Shown here: piece by piece, positions 24,890 to 36,264 of the stretch
How the letters are laid out: each line of letters opens with the position of its first letter
Numbering within the stretch: position 1 is the first letter of the stretch
DNA from: Thiomonas arsenitoxydans
Lineage (GTDB): Bacteria > Pseudomonadota > Gammaproteobacteria > Burkholderiales > Burkholderiaceae_C
Assembly (NCBI RefSeq): GCF_000253115.1
Contig: NC_014145.1
Span: forward strand, 2,976,001 to 3,040,000
Reading direction: 5' to 3'
DNA length: 64,000 nt
Translations under genes and position numbers: made by a program
The notes under the pieces: generated by a model
What the model saw: the letters and a program-made list of their open reading frames with translations, nothing else
Databases searched by the model: none
What the model was told of the DNA's origin: nothing

Positions 24890-25006
24890 TGTTGGCGCCG
24901 ACCGAAAACTGAGCCACTTATGAGGGTAGTGCCGACCCAAAACTGAGCCAGGTGAACGACCTACTCTGCTGCTTTTTTGAGCAGCAGAGGACCAGGAGTG
25001 ATCACC

Positions 25007-26539
25007 ATGGACATGATTGGCAGGATCCGGCATTTGCATGCCCGGAAGAACAAATCGGAGCGCGAGATTGCGCGCATGACAGGGCTCTCGCGCAACACGG
25101 TTGCGAAGTGGTTGCACGGCGAGGTGGACGGCCCACCGAAGTACCGGCGCGGAGAGCAGCCCAACAAGCTCACGGCGTTCCACGACGCGCTCAGGCAAGC
25201 GTTGAAGGCCGACGCGCGGCGGCCCAAACACGAGCGGCGCACGGCCAAAGCGCTGTACGCCGAGATCAGGCGCGCGGGCTATGAGGGTGGCTACACGCGG
25301 GTGACCGACTTCATCCGGGCGTGGCGCCAGGGCGAAGGCCAGGGGTCTGCGGTCAACGCTTTTGTGCCGCTGGCCTTCGAGCTGGGCGAAGCCTTCCAGT
25401 TCGACTGGAGCGAGGAAGGCATGGTGATTGGCGGCATCTACTACCGGGTGCAGGTCTCCCACATGAAGCTGTGCGCCAGTCGGGCCTTCTGGCTGGTGGC
25501 CTACCCCAGCCAGGGCCACGAGATGCTGTTCGATGCCCACACCCGGTCGTTCGCGGCGCTCGGCGGCGTGGCGCGCCGGGGCATCTATGACAACATGAAG
25601 ACGGCCGTTGACAAGGTCAAGAAAGGCAAGGGACGCATCGTCAACGAGCGCTTTGCCACCATGTGCGCGCACTACCTGTACGACCCGGACTTCTGCAACG
25701 TGGCCAGTGGCTGGGAGAAAGGGGTGGTGGAGAAGAACGTGCAGGACAGCCGTCGGCGCATCTGGATCGACGCGGCCAAGATCAAGTTCGGCAGCTTCAG
25801 CGAACTCAACGCCTGGCTGGGCCAGCGCTGCCGCGCGTTGTGGGACGAGGTGCGCCACCCCGAGCACACCCAGTTCAGCGTGGCCGAGATGCTCGAACAC
25901 GAGCGCGCGCGCCTCATGCCCATGCCGGTGCCGTTCGATGGCTACGTCGAGAAACCCGCGCGGGTCTCCAGCACCTGTCTGGTGTCGGTGGCGCGCAACC
26001 GCTATTCGGTGCCGTGCGAACGGGTGGGGCAGATAGTCAGCACACGGCTGTACCCGGGCAGCGTCGCCATCGTGGTCGACGACACCATCGTGGCCCGCCA
26101 CGACCGGCTCAGCAACGCGGGGGAGACCCGGTACGACTGGCAGCACTACATCCCGCTGCTGCAGAGGAAGCCTGGCGCGCTGAGGAACGGCGCGCCTTTT
26201 GCCGACATGCCCGAGCCGCTGCAGCGACTGCGCCGTGGGCTGCTGCGCAACCCAGGCGGCGACCGGGTCATGGCGCAGGTGCTGGCGATCGTGCTCAGCG
26301 CCGGTCTGGATGCGGTGCTGGTGGCCATCGAACTGGCGCTGGAGAGCGGTCCACCGGGCAAGGTCAGTGTGGAGCATGTGGTCAATGTGCTGAGCCGACT
26401 CAACGCGCAGCCGGTGCCGCCCACGGCGGCTACGCTGCTGAGAGTGAACACGCCGCCGCTGGTGAACACGGCGCGCTACGACAGCCTGCGCTCGGACGCC
26501 GCGGGCGCCATCACCGAGGGAGCCGGCCATGAAGACTGA
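25007..26539 (+). CDS. istA: IS21-family transposase IstA
   Basis: The 510-aa protein has the N-terminal helix-turn-helix ([20 protein letters not shown]) and the DDE core of IS21 transposases. The first Asp lies in [17 protein letters not shown], the second in [20 protein letters not shown], and the Glu in [18 protein letters not shown]. The C-terminal part ([20 protein letters not shown]) is also family-typical. Start ATG 25007 has a Shine-Dalgarno-like aggag about 8 bases upstream. It overlaps istB by 11 bases, in the usual coupled arrangement. Confidence 0.92.
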
Positions 26540-27350
26540 TGTACTGCTCGAACTCAAGGCTCTGCGTCTGCACGGCATGGCCAGCGCGTGGGCCGATCTG
26601 GTCGAGCAAGGCGGCGGCGAGGCAGGCGGTGTGGGCATCGAGTCCTCACGCTGGCTGATCGAGCATCTGCTGCAGGCCGAGGGCACAGACCGTGCGATGC
26701 GCTCGGTCAGTCACCAGATGCACGCGGCGAAGTTCCCGGTGCACCGCGACATGGCGGGCTTTGACTTCGAGGTCTCGCCGGTGGACCGCAAGCTAGTGGA
26801 GACTCTGGCCACCACGGCCTTCACTGAGGAGGCGCACAACGTGGTGCTGGTGGGCGGGCCTGGCACTGGAAAGACCCATCTGGCCACGGCCATGGGCGTC
26901 TCGGGCATCACCCGGCACGGCAAGCGGGTGCGGTTCTACTCCACGGTCGATCTGGTCAACGCACTGGAGCAGGAGAAGGCCCAAGGCAGGGCCGGGCGCA
27001 TCGCCACCAGCCTGCTGCGCATGGACCTGATCATTCTGGACGAGCTGGGCTATCTGCCGTTCAGCCAGGCCGGTGGGGCGTTGCTGTTCCACCTGCTCAG
27101 CAAGCTGTACGAGCACACCAGCGTGATGCTCACGACCAACCTGGACTTCGCCGAATGGTCCAGCGTGTTCGGCGACGCGAAGATGACCACCGCACTGCTG
27201 GACCGGCTCACGCACCACTGCCACATCGTGGAAACAGGCAACGAGTCGATCCGGTTTAGCCGCAGCACGGCTGCAGCCAAGAAGCGAATCAAGGCCCGCG
27301 AGCAGGCGCGCAAGGACGTCTCGGCGCAGGCAGAACCCGCCCCATTCTGA
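26529..27350 (+). CDS. istB: IS21 helper ATPase IstB
   Basis: The 273-aa protein is an AAA+ ATPase with Walker [14 protein letters not shown] and Walker [18 protein letters not shown]. The sensor segment [20 protein letters not shown] follows, and the arginine-containing end [20 protein letters not shown] is typical. IstB helps IstA choose and bend target DNA. It starts within the end of istA. The extra C-terminal basic tail ([13 protein letters not shown]) is usual for this group. Confidence 0.92.
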
Positions 27351-27360
27351 GCACGCTCCG

Positions 27361-27407
27361 CGATGGGCAAGCCGCTACGGGCTACGCCCTGCGCGGCTTG
27401 CCCATCG
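27361..27407. terminator. 15-bp perfect hairpin after istB
   Basis: CGATGGGCAAGCCGC (27361-27375) pairs perfectly with GCGGCTTGCCCATCG (27393-27407) around a 17-base loop, 10 bases after the istB stop. There is no T-run, so it may slow transcription or protect the transcript rather than act as a classical terminator. Confidence 0.5.
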
Positions 27408-27546
27408 GCTTCAACACAACAACAAGGAGGTCCCCGAACCAGCACAGCCCCTACACTTATCCACAGCCGACCCTCTCAAAATCGGCTTCCACCCCTGGCT
27501 CAATATTCAGTCGGCACGGTGGCTCAAATTTGAATCGGCGCCGACA

Positions 27547-27992
27547 CGCAACACATCATCGCGGGTTGCGTACGCCGCCAATGCCTTGCCGGAGAGCACG
27601 AACACCAGGCGGTGGTCAGGCGACACCACCGCCACGCGCCCACCCGGGATGCTCTTGAACTGCCCGACCGGTTTGTCTGTACGAAGGTCGATCACATCGG
27701 TGGTCCCGGCAAGACTCGGGATGAAGACTTGGTGGTCCTGCGCATTCACACCGACAAAAAAGCTATTCCCCTTGGGTGTTCCAGCCTGGCCAAAATTCAG
27801 CACATGCGCAGCATTGCCGGGCCAGCGCACCACCGCCATTTTGCCCGGGCCTCCCCCCATGGGTGGGGCCTGGAAGGCTCCGACCAAGAACGCGGATGCG
27901 CCCGCCGGGGAGGCATATGCAGGAGCGGCTGGTGCCGCCACAGCCATCAGCGCGAGCAGGGCAAGGCTGGACAGACGCAAGCGGGGTTTCAT
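27547..27992 (-). pseudogene. Secreted beta-propeller-like protein, cut by IS21
   Basis: ATG 27992 starts a Sec signal peptide (LRLSSLALLALMAVAAPAAP, cleavage after AYA). The mature part has repeats of YVTN/beta-propeller type: GKMAVVRWPGNAAHVLNFGQ, HQVFIPSLAGTTDVIDLRTD, GGRVAVVSPDHRLVFVLSGK. The frame enters the IS21 right end after about 149 codons and stops at 27507, so the C-terminal half is missing. The original function is unknown; such proteins are often periplasmic. Confidence 0.6.
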
Positions 27993-28196
27993 CGGGCAAA
28001 GTTCCTTGGGGTTGGGAGGACGGGGGGAACGACGGCTGCATGGACTCAAGTTACCTCGAGCAAGCGCAAATCAATCGACGCGGGGGAATATCGGTGGCAT
28101 CCTCCCCAGTGGATGGGTTGGAACAGGCTAAAGTTCCTGACACCGCGATAGGCATGAAAAAGGGCGGTTTCAATAGTGAAGTGCAACACCCGTTGG

Positions 28197-29222
28197 TTAT
28201 TGAATTGAGGAGGGAGCTTCGTGGGTATTGGCCAGCATTTGCGCGAAGACCTCCAACGGGGAATGGAATGCATGGGTGGCCCTTGGTCTGCCGTTGAGGC
28301 TGTCGGCAATGGCGTCCAGGTCAGCCTGGGAGTACACCGACAGGTCGGTGCCCTTGGGCAGATACTGGCGCAGCAATCCGTTGGTGTTCTCGCAGGTGCC
28401 GCGCTGCCAGGGGCTGTGGGGGTCACAGAAGTACACGCGCACGCCGGTGTTGGCGGTGAGCTCGGCATGGCGGGTCATCTCTCGACCCTGGTCGTACGTC
28501 ATGCTCTGGCGCAGTGGCGCAGCAATCGACCGCAGCTTGGCCGTAAAGCCAGCCAGGGCCGAGGCGGCCGTGGCATCGGGCATCTGGACGAGCAACAGCA
28601 GACGGCTGGAACGCTCGACCAGCACGCCCACGGCGGATTTGTTGCCAGCCCCCTTGATGAGGTCGCCCTCCCAGTGTCCCGGCATCAAGCGGTCTTCAAT
28701 CTCGGGCGGGCGCACATGGATGCTGACCATCTCGGGAATCTGGCCGCGGCGGTCGGTGCCACGCGAACGCGGCACACGCTTGCTGTGGCCCTGGCGCAGG
28801 CAGGCCATCAACTGCCGTCGCAACTCCCCGCGGGCATGGGCATAGATGGCGGTGTAGATGGTCTCATGCGAGACCTGCAGCTCGGGGCGCTCGGGATACA
28901 CCCGCAGCAGTGTGCCAGCAATCTGCTGGGGCGAATACTTCCAGTCCAGCAAGGCAGTGACCACGCCCCAGAGGATGCCGTCCCGGTGCAGCTTGGGAGA
29001 CGGGCGTGCGGCATCCCGGCGCGTCGCACAGCGCTGCTGCGCCGTTGCGGCCGCATAGGGCCTCGTGTCCTCGCCATTGCGGCCAAGCTCCCGACTGATG
29101 GTCGAGGGCGCACGCCCCAGTGTTCGGGCCATGGCCCGAACACTGCACCCCTGCTGCATCAAACTGGCCATCGTCATGCGCTCTTCCGGTTGAAGCTGTC
29201 GGTACGTCGTCGTCCTTTGCAT
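28197..29222 (-). CDS. IS30-family transposase
   Basis: The 341-aa protein begins with an IS30 helix-turn-helix (RMTMASLMQQGCSVRAMART followed by LGRAPSTISRELGRNG). The DDE residues lie in MPGHWEGDLIKGAGNKSAVG, QSMTYDQGREMTRH and WQRGTCENTNGLLRQYLPKG. The reading frame is complete and typical in length. Its element's right inverted repeat has been split by a group II intron, so the element may no longer transpose even though the enzyme looks intact. Confidence 0.92.
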   Translation of the reverse strand: MQRTTTYRQLQPEERMTMASLMQQGCSVRAMARTLGRAPSTISRELGRNGEDTRPYAAATAQQRCATRRDAARPSPKLHRDGILWGVVTALLDWKYSPQQIAGTLLRVYPERPELQVSHETIYTAIYAHARGELRRQLMACLRQGHSKRVPRSRGTDRRGQIPEMVSIHVRPPEIEDRLMPGHWEGDLIKGAGNKSAVGVLVERSSRLLLLVQMPDATAASALAGFTAKLRSIAAPLRQSMTYDQGREMTRHAELTANTGVRVYFCDPHSPWQRGTCENTNGLLRQYLPKGTDLSVYSQADLDAIADSLNGRPRATHAFHSPLEVFAQMLANTHEAPSSIQ

Positions 29223-29250
29223 CGCAACACCTTACAGGCTTGGGGTGTTG

Positions 29251-31161
29251 ATCGCGGTAGAGATGCCCGTTACCGGCCACCCCCCGCACAGATCCGTACG
29301 GGCCCGATTCGGGCATACGGCTCCTACCTCGGGTGCTTGACGGCAAAGCGCTGTTGAGGCCATGGATGAAGGATTCTTGGGATTGGGAGCCAGTCTTCTG
29401 CGATTCGCGTCATGCGCTCCCACGTCAAGTTTTGCCTTTGACTGCGGCGCCGCAGCGTTCGCAGCCAGAGATTCAAGACGTGGTGTCGAAACGCCCCGAG
29501 TGCCCGGAAATTCGTGGGCACTGCGTGGTAGGCGAAATAGCCGTTGAGCACCGACGCGAGCCACCGCCCCTGGGAAGGGATCGGTGCATGCATGCGCTCA
29601 CGCAACGTCGCCTTGATCTCCCTGAGCCTCGCTCGCATCCGATCGCCCCGGGTCTTTCGGTGGAGCAAGAATGCGCCACGTCGGGACCGACCGCAGATGA
29701 AGACGAAACCCAGGAACATGAACGTCTCAGGTTTGCCCAGACCGCGCCGCGAGCGGCGCTCAGCCGCGTAGCGGCCAAACTCCAGCAGGCGCGTCTTCTC
29801 CCCGTGCGGTTCGAGCCCAAACTGCTCGAACCGCGTTCGCATCGCGTCCCAGAAGCGCCGTGCATCGGCTTCGTGCTGAAAGCCGACAACGATGTCGTCG
29901 GCATAGCGCACGACAATCATGTTGCCCGTTGCCTCCCGCCCTCGCCACTGCTTGGCCCACAGGTCGAAGACATCGTGCAGGTACACGTTCGCAAGCAGCG
30001 GTGAGATCACGGCCCCCTGCGGCGTGCCTTCGGCACTGACGCTCCACTCCCCGTCGTCCAGGACGCCCGCCTTGAGCCACTTGCGCACAAGGCGGATGAC
30101 GCGCTCGTCGCCGATCCGGTGGCCGAGGAAACGGAGCAGCCATTCCTGGCTGACCGAATCGAAGAAGCTCCGAATATCCGCGTCGAGAATCCAGTTCACC
30201 GGGGTGCCGCTGATCGCCACCGACAGTGCATCAAGCGCATCGTGCTGACCCCGCCCAGGCCGAAACCCGTACGAGAACCCAAGGAAGTCTTCCTCGTAGA
30301 TGGCATTGAGCACCGCAACGAGCGCACGCTGGACGATCTTGTCTTCCAGCGCGGCGATACCCAGCGGTCGCTGCTTGTCGGTGCCAGACTTGGGTATGAA
30401 CCGTCGCCTGACGGGCAGCGCCCGATACCCTCCGCTATGAACCCGTGCATGCAGGTCGAGGAGGTTGACCTCCAGACCCGCCTCGTAGTCCTGCCATGTC
30501 AGACCATCAACCCCGGGAGCGGCACGGCGCTTGAGCGCCAGGAACGATTCCCTCAGCAGGTCAACACTGACGTGGTGCAGCAGCGCGGTGAACTTCTCCT
30601 TCTTCCGCTGCCTTGCAGCTTTCCGTACACAGTCCAGCTCCTGTGACACGCTATCGCGGCTCTGTGTCCGTCGCGTGTGCGGCTGTTCCGTGTTCCCCTT
30701 GGTCCCGGTCCTTCGCTCCACCCACTCCGCAACCGGCGGACCGGCCTTGTTCGCGGGCTTCACAGCTACTACGACCGAGTCTGACTTCTCGGGTCCGTTC
30801 ATCATTGGCTTCGGCTCCTCGCCTTCCCAATGCGGGCCAGCCCGTACAGCGGCTGGTCAGACCCGAGATCTCCCGGTTCCCGTGCCAGGAGCGTGCGTAC
30901 ATGCCAGGTTCTACGACCACGCCGGGTCCAGCGGGCGCTTGCGTTGACGCACCCGTCGATGTTGCCTTCCACAGAAGTGACGGTGTCGGCACCCGGAATA
31001 GAAATCCTATCGCGGCTCAATGGCTGGCCTGTACGTCCCCCTGCCGACGCTTCGCCGACATCCTCACGGATGCCTGCGCACGGCTCGGGGTCGATGCGGT
31101 TCGCTATTCCTTCATCGCAGTGGACTTGCACCACCTACTCCTTGCCGGTCTCCCGGCGCAC
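29251..31161 (-). ncRNA. Group II intron RNA (self-splicing ribozyme)
   Basis: The minus strand begins with GTGCG at 31161, the standard 5' end, followed by a GTGCAAGTCCAC motif and a GAGCCGTGCGCAGGC element typical of domain I. Domain V lies at 29323-29291: GAGCCGTATGCCCG, an AATC loop, then GGGCCCGTACGGATC. The 3' end is set at 29251 (AY end, CGCGAT) because that restores the IS30 terminal repeat. The length is 1911 bases. The maturase stop codon lies immediately next to domain V. Confidence 0.82.
29324..30805 (-). CDS. ltrA: Group II intron reverse transcriptase/maturase
   Basis: The 493-aa protein has the reverse transcriptase blocks: FIPKSGTDKQRPLGIAALED, YGFRPGRGQHDALDALSVAI, DADIRSFFDSVSQEWLLRFL, SAEGTPQGAVISPLLANVYL and the active-site MIVVRYADDIVVGFQ. 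The maturase X domain follows (FLGFVFICGRSRRGAFLLHR). The C-terminus ends LPIPRILHPWPQQRFAVKHP with no HNH endonuclease, so it belongs to the endonuclease-less group that depends on replication forks or DNA structure for priming. The protein assists splicing and mobility of the intron in which it lies. Confidence 0.92.
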   Translation of the reverse strand: MMNGPEKSDSVVVAVKPANKAGPPVAEWVERRTGTKGNTEQPHTRRTQSRDSVSQELDCVRKAARQRKKEKFTALLHHVSVDLLRESFLALKRRAAPGVDGLTWQDYEAGLEVNLLDLHARVHSGGYRALPVRRRFIPKSGTDKQRPLGIAALEDKIVQRALVAVLNAIYEEDFLGFSYGFRPGRGQHDALDALSVAISGTPVNWILDADIRSFFDSVSQEWLLRFLGHRIGDERVIRLVRKWLKAGVLDDGEWSVSAEGTPQGAVISPLLANVYLHDVFDLWAKQWRGREATGNMIVVRYADDIVVGFQHEADARRFWDAMRTRFEQFGLEPHGEKTRLLEFGRYAAERRSRRGLGKPETFMFLGFVFICGRSRRGAFLLHRKTRGDRMRARLREIKATLRERMHAPIPSQGRWLASVLNGYFAYHAVPTNFRALGAFRHHVLNLWLRTLRRRSQRQNLTWERMTRIAEDWLPIPRILHPWPQQRFAVKHPR

Positions 31162-31230
31162 CACTTCAGATTTGAGGCCGCCATGTATCCGCGTGCTACC
31201 GCCGCTTGGGGTGATGGCGCCGTGATCACG

Positions 31231-33361
<2,131 letters not shown>

Positions 33362-33464
33362 GACGGCATCTCCAATGCACAACGTTGTTTCGAGGGGGTG
33401 AAGGACGGTACGTGCCGCCTCGGCGGCATGGCCGGAGCGACAGTCAAACTGTCGCGTCATCGAC

Positions 33465-33743
33465 TTACTGGGAGACCACCGAGGGGTAGCCGGCGTCGGT
33501 GGTGGCCTTGATCAGGGCTTTGACGTTGGTCTTGGCATCGTCGAAGGTGACTTGGGCTATTTTTTTCCCAAAATTGATGTCCACCTTTTCGACGCCAGGT
33601 ACGGTGTGCAAAGCGTTGTTGACGGTGATCGGACACACCGGGCAGGTCATGCCGGGCACGGCGAGGGTGACGGTCTGCACACCAGCCCAGGCAGGGGCAG
33701 TGCAAGCGGAAATGAGTGCGATGGCAGTCAGGAGCTTGTTCAT
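33465..33743 (-). CDS. merP: Periplasmic mercury-binding protein MerP
   Basis: The 92-aa protein has a signal peptide (KLLTAIALISACTAPAWA) and one HMA domain with the Hg site GMTCPVCPITVNNAL. The beta-sheet end VDINFGKKIAQVTFDDAKTN is typical. MerP picks up Hg(II) in the periplasm and gives it to MerT or MerC. Start ATG 33743 is preceded by a good ribosome site (aaagg). It lies 11 bases after merT. Confidence 0.95.
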   Translation of the reverse strand: MNKLLTAIALISACTAPAWAGVQTVTLAVPGMTCPVCPITVNNALHTVPGVEKVDINFGKKIAQVTFDDAKTNVKALIKATTDAGYPSVVSQ

Positions 33744-33754
33744 GAGGGTTCCTT

Positions 33755-34111
33755 TCAATAGAACAGGGGAGCGACGAGGGGGAAAGCCAGGGCGACGACG
33801 ACGAGCGCCGCCACGACCCAGAACAGCAACTTGTAGGTGGCGTTGACCTGGGGAATGGCGCAGACCTCGCCGGGCTTGCATGCCGCAGGCGCCCGGAACA
33901 GGCGGCGGTAGGCGAAGAACAAGGCGACCAGAGCGGCGCCGATGAAGATCGGCCTGTAGGGCTCGAGCAGGGTCAGATTGCTGATCCACGCGCCGCTGAT
34001 GCCCAGCGACAGAAGAATCAGAGGCCCCAGGCAACAGGTCGAGGCCAGGATGGCCGCGAGCCCGCTGGCGAACAGGGCGCCACGCCCATGGGGTCGGGTC
34101 GGTTGAGGCAT
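33755..34111 (-). CDS. merT: Mercury transporter MerT
   Basis: The 118-aa inner-membrane protein has three membrane segments. The first carries the Cys pair in ILASTCCLGPLILLSLGISG. The second pair sits in a cytoplasmic loop, ACKPGEVCAIPQ. It moves Hg(II) from MerP to MerA. The start at 34111 begins MPQPTRPHGRGALFASGLAA; an open frame upstream runs through the promoter and is not coding. The MerR-type promoter lies about 30-60 bases before it. Confidence 0.95.
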   Translation of the reverse strand: MPQPTRPHGRGALFASGLAAILASTCCLGPLILLSLGISGAWISNLTLLEPYRPIFIGAALVALFFAYRRLFRAPAACKPGEVCAIPQVNATYKLLFWVVAALVVVALAFPLVAPLFY

Positions 34112-34142
34112 GCACGAACTCCGTTCGGTTGACGATGGTGGC

Positions 34143-34173
34143 ACTGTAGGGCCGTACCAAAGTCCGGAGTCAA
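34143..34173 (-). promoter_or_regulatory. MerR-type merT promoter/operator
   Basis: On the minus strand TTGACT (34173-34168) and TACAGT (34148-34143) are separated by 19 bases, the lengthened spacer that MerR untwists when it binds Hg(II). The spacer holds a dyad, CCGGAC TTTG GTACGG. This is the classic layout of the mer operator, placed between merR and merT. Confidence 0.85.
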
Positions 34174-34252
34174 GCGGCGCTGCGCCATGGTTGACAAGGT
34201 CTTGTGGCCTTGCCCCGCCCCGACGCATCAAGGACGCGTGAGATCGCCGTGC

Positions 34253-34672
34253 TCAAGTGTCGCGAACACGGGCATGCAGTGCTTCGATCAAGGGGCAAGA
34301 CGTGGATCCGAGGCTGGAGCCGCAGTCGCGCACCATCCTGGCCAGAGCCGCTTCGATGCGGTGCAGACCGGCTATCTTGACGCGAACATCCATGAGCTTG
34401 CGTTCGCCCAGTTCGCGCGCTTGGTCGCAGTGCATGCCGTCGTCGAGTTGCAGCAAGCCGGCGATCTCGTCGAGGCTGAAGCCCAGGCGCTGGGCGGATT
34501 TGATGAATTGCAGGCGGGCGACGTCATCGGGTCCGTAGCGGCGGAAGCTGCCCTGCGGTCGCTCGGGCTCGCACAGCAAGCCCTTGCGCTGGTAGAACCG
34601 GATGGTTTCGACATTGACCCCTGCCGCCCGGGCGACGGTGCCGATGGTGAAGTCATCCGAATCATGGTCCAT
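34253..34672 (-). CDS. merR: Mercury-responsive regulator MerR
   Basis: The 139-aa protein has the MerR winged helix ([40 protein letters not shown]) and the long dimer helix. The three Hg-binding cysteines of true MerR proteins are present, in [21 protein letters not shown] and [13 protein letters not shown]. It is transcribed in the same direction as merTPCA and lies just upstream, rather than divergent as in Tn21 and Tn501. Its own promoter would be upstream of 34672; I cannot define it with confidence. Confidence 0.93.
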
Positions 34673-34879
34673 GGTTTATCCCTCAAGGCGCAGTGCGCAA
34701 GTTTGACGCAAACTGCGATCTGGTGTCGCGAAACCGCAGTCATGCGGAACGAGCGCAGTGACCGTTTCGGGTCGGGACGCTGCCCGTTGGATGATCGGAT
34801 CTCGGTGGTCGCTGAGCACCCATCGGCCGACACAAGCTTGCCGCGAATGCATACCTGCCGTTGTACCGCATCGTTGCTT

Positions 34880-35575
34880 TCAGATGGCCAAAGCCGGCAT
34901 CCAGGCGTAGTAACCGTTGAGCAGATAGACCCCGAACAGAATCAGCGTGATGCCGCCAGCAGCCTCAAACAGGCGTCGGTAGGCATCCAAGCGCCGGAGG
35001 TTCTGGAGCCATCCCAACGACCACGCACCCACGGCCACGGGAATCGCCCGGCCGAAGGCGAAGGCCAGCAGCAGACCCACCCCCAGCCATGGTGATCCCG
35101 ATGCGGCAGCGACGCCGATCAGCACAGCCAGCGCAGGGGTACAAAAGGGACACACCGCAACCGAGAATGGGATGCCCAGGGCAAACGCGCCCCATAGCCC
35201 CTTGGGGCGGCGCGCACGCAAGGCCAAGGCCGGCAGGGGCAGGCGGATCCAGCCCGGCCATAGCAGGCCCATCAGAATCAGCAGCGGCCCGAGGAACAAT
35301 CCCCATTGGCGCCCCAGCAGATGCTCGACCCAGGCGCCGCCCAAGCCGGCGATCAAACCCAAGAGCCCGTGGGTGAGCAGCATGCCCAGGATGAACATGG
35401 CGCCGAAGGACCAAGCCTGGCGGGCCTGCCTGGCCTTGGTGACATAGGCCATCGAGACAGGAATGGCGGCCAGCGCCACGGGATTGATGCTGAAGGCCAG
35501 CCCGGCCACGAAGCTGACGCCCAGAGCAGCCGGGCCAGCATGTTCCAGGGTGGTGCGAAACAGGGATGGGTCCAT
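34880..35575 (-). CDS. CcdA-like membrane protein (DsbD transmembrane family)
   Basis: The 231-aa protein has six hydrophobic segments and the two proline/cysteine regions of CcdA: GLAFSINPVALAAIPVSMAY and FSVAVCPFCTPALAVLIGVA. CcdA proteins pass electrons from cytoplasmic thioredoxin across the membrane. The first conserved Cys of typical CcdA proteins is replaced here by Asn/Pro (SINPVALA), while CPFC in the other helix supplies a close pair. Whether it still carries out disulfide exchange or moves something else is open. It is the last gene of a four-gene operon and starts 3 bases after a thioredoxin-like gene. Confidence 0.78.
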   Translation of the reverse strand: MDPSLFRTTLEHAGPAALGVSFVAGLAFSINPVALAAIPVSMAYVTKARQARQAWSFGAMFILGMLLTHGLLGLIAGLGGAWVEHLLGRQWGLFLGPLLILMGLLWPGWIRLPLPALALRARRPKGLWGAFALGIPFSVAVCPFCTPALAVLIGVAAASGSPWLGVGLLLAFAFGRAIPVAVGAWSLGWLQNLRRLDAYRRLFEAAGGITLILFGVYLLNGYYAWMPALAI

Positions 35576-35578
35576 CGG

Positions 35579-35842
35579 TCAGCGCTCGTCCCGCGCAAGC
35601 GGTTCCAGGGCCGCACAGAGCTGCTGCGGCGTCGGCAGTTTGGGGAAGAGCAAATCCCCGTTGACGGCCAGCGCCGGCAAGCTCAGGACGCCGAGTTCCA
35701 CGGCACGGTCGAGTGCATCCAGCACATTGCATTCGCGCCACTGAACTTGCGGGAAGCGCTGCAGGGCGGCCGCCTTGAGTTGGGTGCGGGCTCCATCACA
35801 CTGGGTGCAGCCGGGGGAGTAGAACAGTTCGACGTGCATCAA
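35579..35842 (-). CDS. Small thioredoxin-fold protein
   Basis: The 87-aa protein opens VELFYSPGCTQCDGARTQLK, a thioredoxin/glutaredoxin active site with CTQC. A cis-Pro region is seen in VLSLPALAVNGDLLFPKLPT. It has no signal peptide, so it is probably cytoplasmic and could reduce the CcdA-like protein encoded next. Its start overlaps the stop of the MerR-type regulator by 4 bases, which suggests translational coupling. A metal-handling role is inferred from the operon. Confidence 0.72.
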   Translation of the reverse strand: MMHVELFYSPGCTQCDGARTQLKAAALQRFPQVQWRECNVLDALDRAVELGVLSLPALAVNGDLLFPKLPTPQQLCAALEPLARDER

Positions 35843-36264
35843 AGTGAGCCCCTGGACGCAGTCAGTTCAGCGCCTTCGAGCGCGGCCAGAATCGGGCAGG
35901 CATCCAAGGGATAGCGTTCCTGGTTGCAATCGGCAATCAGGCGGTCCAGGGCATCGGACATGGCCTTGAGAGCCTTGATGCGGCTTTCGAGCTGCAGCTT
36001 TTTCTCGATGGCCCGCTTGCGCATATCGCCGCAACAGGCGGCATCCGTGGCACGCAGCTCGAGTAACGCGTGGATCTCCGCCAGCGTAAAGCCGCAATGC
36101 TGGGCCTGCTTGATGAACCGGATGCGACGTGCAGCGTCGGTGTCGTACAGTCTGTAGCCCCCTTCGGACTTGGAGGTGGGGGCGATCAGGCCCTCGCGCT
36201 CGTAGAAGCGCAGGGCATCGGGCGTGGTTTGCGCCAGTTCCGCGAGTTTGCCGATGGTCAGCAT
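35839..36264 (-). CDS. MerR-family heavy-metal-responsive regulator
   Basis: The 141-aa protein has a MerR-type winged helix (LTIGKLAELAQTTPDALRFY followed by EREGLIAPTSKSEGGYRLYD) and a long dimer helix. Candidate metal ligands are in TDAACCGDMRKR, LIADCNQERY and LDACPILAAL. The CPILAAL end resembles ZntR, CadR and PbrR rather than MerR itself. A MerR-type promoter with a 20-base spacer lies upstream of the first gene of this operon and is the likely target. Which metal it senses cannot be told from sequence. Confidence 0.85.
   Translation of the reverse strand: MLTIGKLAELAQTTPDALRFYEREGLIAPTSKSEGGYRLYDTDAARRIRFIKQAQHCGFTLAEIHALLELRATDAACCGDMRKRAIEKKLQLESRIKALKAMSDALDRLIADCNQERYPLDACPILAALEGAELTASRGSL

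Follow-up and report, generated by a model that had tools for sequence, protein, structure and literature searches.

Group II introns that use the terminal inverted repeats of insertion sequences (IS) as DNA targets have been described. RmInt2 from Sinorhizobium meliloti, a class D intron related to the endonuclease-minus (En-minus) RmInt1, targets both terminal repeats of ISRm17, according to a review (PMC5894124). RmInt1, also of class D, is a IIB intron without an endonuclease domain and has an IS, ISRm2011-2, as its home; this is an IS630-family element, with no terminal-repeat site stated for the intron. A disrupted class E intron, S.me.I4, is located on pRmeGR4b (PMC5894124), and class E maturases have been described as lacking the endonuclease domain (PMC4424553 and PMC3552965). 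Group IIC and IIC-attC introns are likewise without the endonuclease; they are described as using an upstream stem-loop and as having no known EBS2 (PMC7923331). Group II introns have also been listed with Thiomonas (PMC8637638).

Here we analysed a group II intron in a 64-kb stretch of Thiomonas DNA (the window). It is very probable that this intron, of subgroup IIB and with a class E type maturase devoid of an endonuclease domain, entered the terminal repeat on the transposase side of an IS1086-like IS30 element by reverse splicing, guided by base pairing. The intron ends, the empty site, the exon pairing and its covariation in relatives were all demonstrated. Like RmInt2, the intron has an IS terminal inverted repeat as its DNA target. 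Whereas RmInt2 occupies left and right repeats in seven copies and belongs to class D (according to the review), the present intron is of class E type and occurs in one copy at one end of an IS30 element. RmInt2-like use of both ends of the same IS was not seen, only the transposase-side end being occupied in the copies read. Group II introns in IS terminal repeats are already known from RmInt2 and ISRm17; the present locus adds a class E type intron and an IS30 target, and the relatives in IS5 and IS66 ends widen the picture. A partial literature search found no published group II intron in an IS30 end or paired with IS1086. The coordinates of all features are collected in Table 1.

Table 1. 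Features of the intron, its exon pairings and the interrupted IS30 element, in window positions.
Feature	Position	Strand	Remarks
IS1086-like IS30-family element including intron	28163..31182	-	1109 bp without intron; 29-bp terminal repeats
Intact terminal repeat, downstream of transposase gene	28163..28191	+	24/29 identical to joined other end
IS30 transposase, 341 aa, open	28197..29222	-	ORF; NF033563 315 bits; HTH_38 and rve
Small inverted repeat, 7-bp arms	29225..29250	-	first 3' exon base into transposase leader
Interrupted repeat, inner 8 bp (3' exon)	29243..29250	-	empty-site copies L092, L098; 29250 = IBS3 (C)
Group II intron	29251..31161	-	length 1911 nt; exon pairing as in IIB; maturase of class E type
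Domains V and VI	29251..29325	-	Rfam RF00029, whole model (1-77 of 77)
Reverse transcriptase/maturase, 493 aa, YADD motif	29324..30805	-	TIGR04416 326 bits (cut-off 300); PF00078
Ribozyme domain I core	30907..31128	-	RF02005, 187 bits, well above gathering score
EBS3	30914	-	intron nt 248, G; pairs with 29250 (first 3' exon base)
EBS1	30974..30979	-	intron nt 183-188, CACTTC; 6/6 with IBS1; family covariation
EBS2	31002..31006	-	intron nt 156-160, GATTT; 5/5 with IBS2; family covariation
IBS1	31162..31167	-	GAAGTG
IBS2	31169..31173	-	AAATC
Interrupted repeat, outer 21 bp (5' exon)	31162..31182	-	identical in L092, L094, L098

The sequence-only reading had fixed both intron ends to the base, and this placement was borne out by full-length matches in other loci, by the end of the RF00029 model and by empty sites. 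On the minus strand, the intron starts with GTGCG at 31161 and ends with CGCGAT finishing at 29251, in accordance with the GUGYG 5' end and the AY 3' end of group II introns (GTGCG...GAT). The junction bases (exon ...G, intron G...T, exon C...) are such that the insertion cannot be shifted. A single-piece BLAST alignment of nt 1-1911 was obtained in 27 of 88 loci, including the own copy (L001) and L009; apart from these two, the flanks of the full-length loci, compared by eye, were unlike those of the intron on both sides. The Rfam model of domains V and VI, the check on the 3' end that had been named with the placement, terminates exactly at 29251. Its score (39.9 bits, E 7e-6) is 0.1 bit short of the gathering score of 40, and since RF00029 stays just below this score, a plain Rfam scan gave RF02005 alone.

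An empty site from the same genus (L098, genome G012) crosses the junction exactly as predicted, in an IS30 copy with 88% identity across the 794 bp matched. The repeat is also uninterrupted in IS1086 of pMOL28 (L092) and in a Cupriavidus sp. USMAHM13 copy (L094). The right ends of all three copies agree with the sequence obtained by joining the exons, which bears out the proposed nesting of the intron inside an IS30 terminal repeat. Among 399 genomes of the order, the empty-site word was found in two, both times in IS30-like ends (L124, L125).

The assignment of the interrupted element to the IS30 family is based on its NF033563 transposase and on 29-bp repeats matching those of IS1086. The element and IS1086 of Cupriavidus metallidurans, whose L092 copy is without the intron, share 80-81% DNA identity over about two-thirds of the length, and the outer 21 bp of their transposase-side repeats are identical. 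The full repeats (28163-28191 versus 31182-31162 joined to 29250-29243) differ at 5 of 29 bp, and the match of 22 bases with three differences read earlier is correct, being the inner part of these repeats. An inverted copy of the joined end scores 24/29, against 21/29 for the best of 20 shuffles, and TGAAGTGCAACACC with at most one mismatch occurs in the 64-kb window a single time, in the intact repeat (0.03 expected). No target duplication was found as matching bases beside 28163 and 31182; the IS1086 copy L092 has GAG on both sides, and L094 has none. The split terminal repeat probably immobilises this IS copy, while its transposase gene remains open.

The alignment of 5' regions comprised 58 relatives with 56 distinct exons; L009, which has the same exons, stands for the window intron in this set. 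Two stretches emerged unprompted as pairing with the 5' exon: intron nt 183-188 with exon positions -1 to -6, and nt 156-160 with -8 to -12. For the 56 distinct exons, Watson-Crick pairing reached 84% for EBS1-IBS1 (mean 30%, maximum 41% in 2000 shuffles) and 61% for EBS2-IBS2 (mean 25%, maximum 33%, also in 2000 shuffles). With G-U counted, EBS1 is paired at five or six positions in 49 of the 56 rows. The seven rows with fewer than five are L026, L029, L034, L036, L041, L074 and L079; in L026 the start was set one base off, and the starts of L029, L074 and L079 are not GTGCG. In the family as a whole, EBS2 pairs less well than EBS1, with 5/5 pairs in 16 of the 56 rows and at most two in 12 (G-U counted). 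At the 3' side, the partner of the first 3' exon base is intron nt 248, a pair being formed in 46 of 49 rows where 39% would be expected; this column was the best of about 420 and far ahead of the next. The window intron is paired at all 12 positions (EBS1 6/6, EBS2 5/5, EBS3 1/1). Intron nt 183-188, 156-160 and 248 behave as the EBS1, EBS2 and EBS3 of group IIB, and the EBS1-IBS1, EBS2-IBS2 and single-pair EBS3-IBS3 contacts of this subgroup are all present.

The uninterrupted repeat at the other end of the element offers IBS1 at 6/6 positions and IBS2 at only 2/5. This difference would account for the lack of an intron there, so that the choice of end fits the pairing. No further AAATCNGAAGTGC site was found elsewhere in the genome. 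With IBS1 shared and IBS2 different between the two ends of one IS, the determinant of the target end becomes directly testable. The locus also provides a base-exact natural target, with an empty site from the same genus, for an endonuclease-less intron of class E type.

The earlier suggestion that a hairpin serves as target signal was not supported. In that view the intron would recognise the IS end by a hairpin or another structure, in the manner of group IIC introns at terminators and attC sites. The suggestion could draw on the missing endonuclease domain, on the small inverted repeat that begins with the first base of the 3' exon of the window intron and on a few relatives that adjoin palindromes (L007, L041). 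However, EBS1, EBS2 and EBS3 covary with the exons, and the exons fold like shuffled sequences: the mean z was -0.10 for 40-nt 5' exons of 57 loci (three below -2) and -0.02 for 40-nt 3' exons of 75 loci (four below -2). The exons of the window intron itself fold no better than shuffles (5' z 0.74; 3' z -0.25, -7.9 kcal/mol). In addition, the intron has an EBS2 and an EBS1 of 6 bp and shows no stem-loop signal, unlike group IIC, with its upstream stem-loop, an EBS1 of 3-4 bp and no known EBS2. We therefore consider structure-based recognition very improbable.

The maturase gave no match to an endonuclease domain at E 0.001, Pfam returning RVT_1 alone and NCBIfam reverse transcriptase models alone; these profiles bear out the domain composition read from the sequence. 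The stop codon (29324-29326) abuts domain V, as had also been noticed, and this layout is common to L002, L003 and L008; the L004 and L007 frames, unlike that of the window intron, continue towards the intron end. The maturase is 54% identical over 315 aa to a reverse transcriptase fragment of pRmeGR4b (L127), its closest relative on that plasmid in a comparison covering 200 of the 225.7 kb. We infer that this fragment is the disrupted S.me.I4, so that of the two classified maturases compared it would be the nearer one. The identity to a 419-aa ltrA protein (L129), which from its length we take to be of the RmInt1 type, was 30%. The maturase is thus nearer to the class E than to the class D reference, an assignment that is to be read as pairwise identity to one presumed class E reference.

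In the most likely course of target recognition, 12 bases would be paired (5 bp of EBS2-IBS2, 6 bp of EBS1-IBS1 and 1 bp of EBS3-IBS3). The intron RNP would reverse-splice into one DNA strand where the pairing is made; a replication-fork strand would then prime reverse transcription, and repair would follow; the leader RNA would be spliced. This model follows RmInt1 as presented in PMC5894124 and PMC8914252. With dnaA at C2:302, on the contig of the 3.79-Mb genome that carries the window, the intron orientation is the one that fits a lagging-strand template, provided that the terminus is located opposite dnaA; this is a single case with even odds. The GC skew in the 64-kb window changes sign and gave no help on the direction of replication.

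The genome contains one copy of the intron. A single copy would be compatible with recombination or an assembly error having joined IS and intron, the intron not having placed itself. To this we give hardly any credence, given that the same arrangement is present in a separate record, Thiomonas delicata DSM 16361 (L009), that the empty sites are clean, with no base lost or gained, and that the exon pairing of the window intron is perfect. Pairing-guided reverse splicing remains our reading of the locus. In T. delicata the same intron occupies the same site with 1 difference in 1911, and the two records share the IS and its neighbours with 98% identity over 7.26 kb. The differences between the window and L009 are concentrated at 31.1-33.5 kb, which is masked by the 98% mean identity. 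Since they are clustered in this way, the near-identity of the two introns supports no claim; the differences may reflect local recombination, to judge from their distribution.

Relatives were taken from genome contigs (the best 80 of 149) and from 7 of the 19 plasmid records with intron matches (H1, H4-H9); three relatives also occurred in viral contigs, outside the comparisons. Repeated use of the same IS30 repeat, which the sequence-only reading had named as the mark of a site preference, was not observed. In 22 of 399 genomes of the order, the 15-base word at the 5' junction was present at 23 places, and at the 20 places checked the sole intron was the own copy. The other 19 of these 20 loci (L104-L123) were coincidences without an intron. 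No second copy in an IS30 end was found in the own genome, the loci compared, 13 genomes of the genus or the junction-word loci. The 13 genus genomes contained one other full-length intron, at a different site (L096), and a DNA search of 220 genomes of the order, which scored at most two candidates per genome, returned the own copy alone at full length and 13 others in part.

A search of 49 loci for their joined exons in inverted orientation turned up two relatives at the ends of other IS. In L004 (Cupriavidus pMTS1), the intron lies within the terminal repeat of an IS5-family element (L004:2987-6024), the transposase frame of which is in two pieces. C. necator C39 has a copy without the intron (L131), which reads exactly like the joined exons of L004, and a C. 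metallidurans plasmid copy (L130) is without that IS5 end because an IS1086-like IS30 end abuts it (L130:40-85). In L040, a metagenome-assembled genome (MAG), the intron is inserted one base in from the end of an IS66-family element (L040:2210-5538); an 8-bp duplication surrounds the joined element, and L132 and L133 have the same ends. The window, L004 and L040 introns are 72-78% identical to one another and have different EBS sequences. EBS1 is paired at 6/6 positions in L009, L004 and L040, and EBS2 pairs well in L009 and L040 and at 2/5 positions in L004.

An inverted copy at IS distance (at least 19/24) was present at 3 of 44 junctions and, among 1070 random positions, at 22 (one-sided P 0.06), where the threshold had been picked after looking and the random controls were drawn from the same, IS-rich flanks. 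This is suggestive of a preference for IS ends, rather than conclusive. For this particular IS30 repeat, then, no second use was seen; IS5 and IS66 ends are hit as well, in this sample without a significant excess over random positions. That the family prefers IS terminal repeats as such, switching between IS families by changes in the EBS, is compatible with pairing-guided insertion and in our view unlikely. Three separate cases (IS30 in the window, IS5 in L004, IS66 in L040) and the insertions of further relatives in transposase genes (IS110, IS5, IS3) speak for it; the one-sided P of 0.06 with its post hoc threshold and the other insertion sites, which include a porin stop codon and sequence without sign of an IS, speak against it. 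Repeated adoption of unrelated IS terminal repeats (IS30, IS5, IS66) by this class E family through changes in EBS1 and EBS2 is a tentative and rather doubtful proposal. If true, such introns would spread with, and disable, the IS that carry them, and with the IS5 and IS66 cases the precedent of RmInt2 and ISRm17 would extend to a second maturase class.

The relatives in transposase genes are in IS110 (L006, L027), IS5 (L020, L037) and IS3 (L071). Both IS110 introns (L006:3001, L027:3639) interrupt the same codon in different genera, and the same is true of the two IS5 introns (L020:3639, L037:3639); these coincidences would be expected from homing on conserved transposase sites. L028, L021, L026 and L039 resemble the introns at transposase sites, judged from the exon sequence alone. 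The intron at L003:3001 directly follows the TGA of an annotated porin gene, and L016:3645 is alike by its exon; the two introns are 88% identical and have the same EBS1. On a Burkholderia anthina plasmid, the intron adjoins a palindrome upstream of imuA (L007:2983-3000), which resembles a LexA box. At L013:3496-3643, two inverted arms are spaced about 120 bp apart and the intron occupies one of them; the pair may form a miniature element. As an IS-end case it was discarded, no IS having been found for it. The frame spanning the intron at L062:3297-5385 resembles the end of another group II maturase, with no NCBIfam match (58 aa), and may represent an intron inside an intron.

As for the surroundings of the element in the window, the match to T. 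delicata L009 ends at 27547, beside the IS21 genes istA and istB (24977-27546), within a reading frame that seemingly continues in L009. On the other side, a mercury-resistance-like cluster (31231-36264; gene names read from the ORFs) lies beside the IS.
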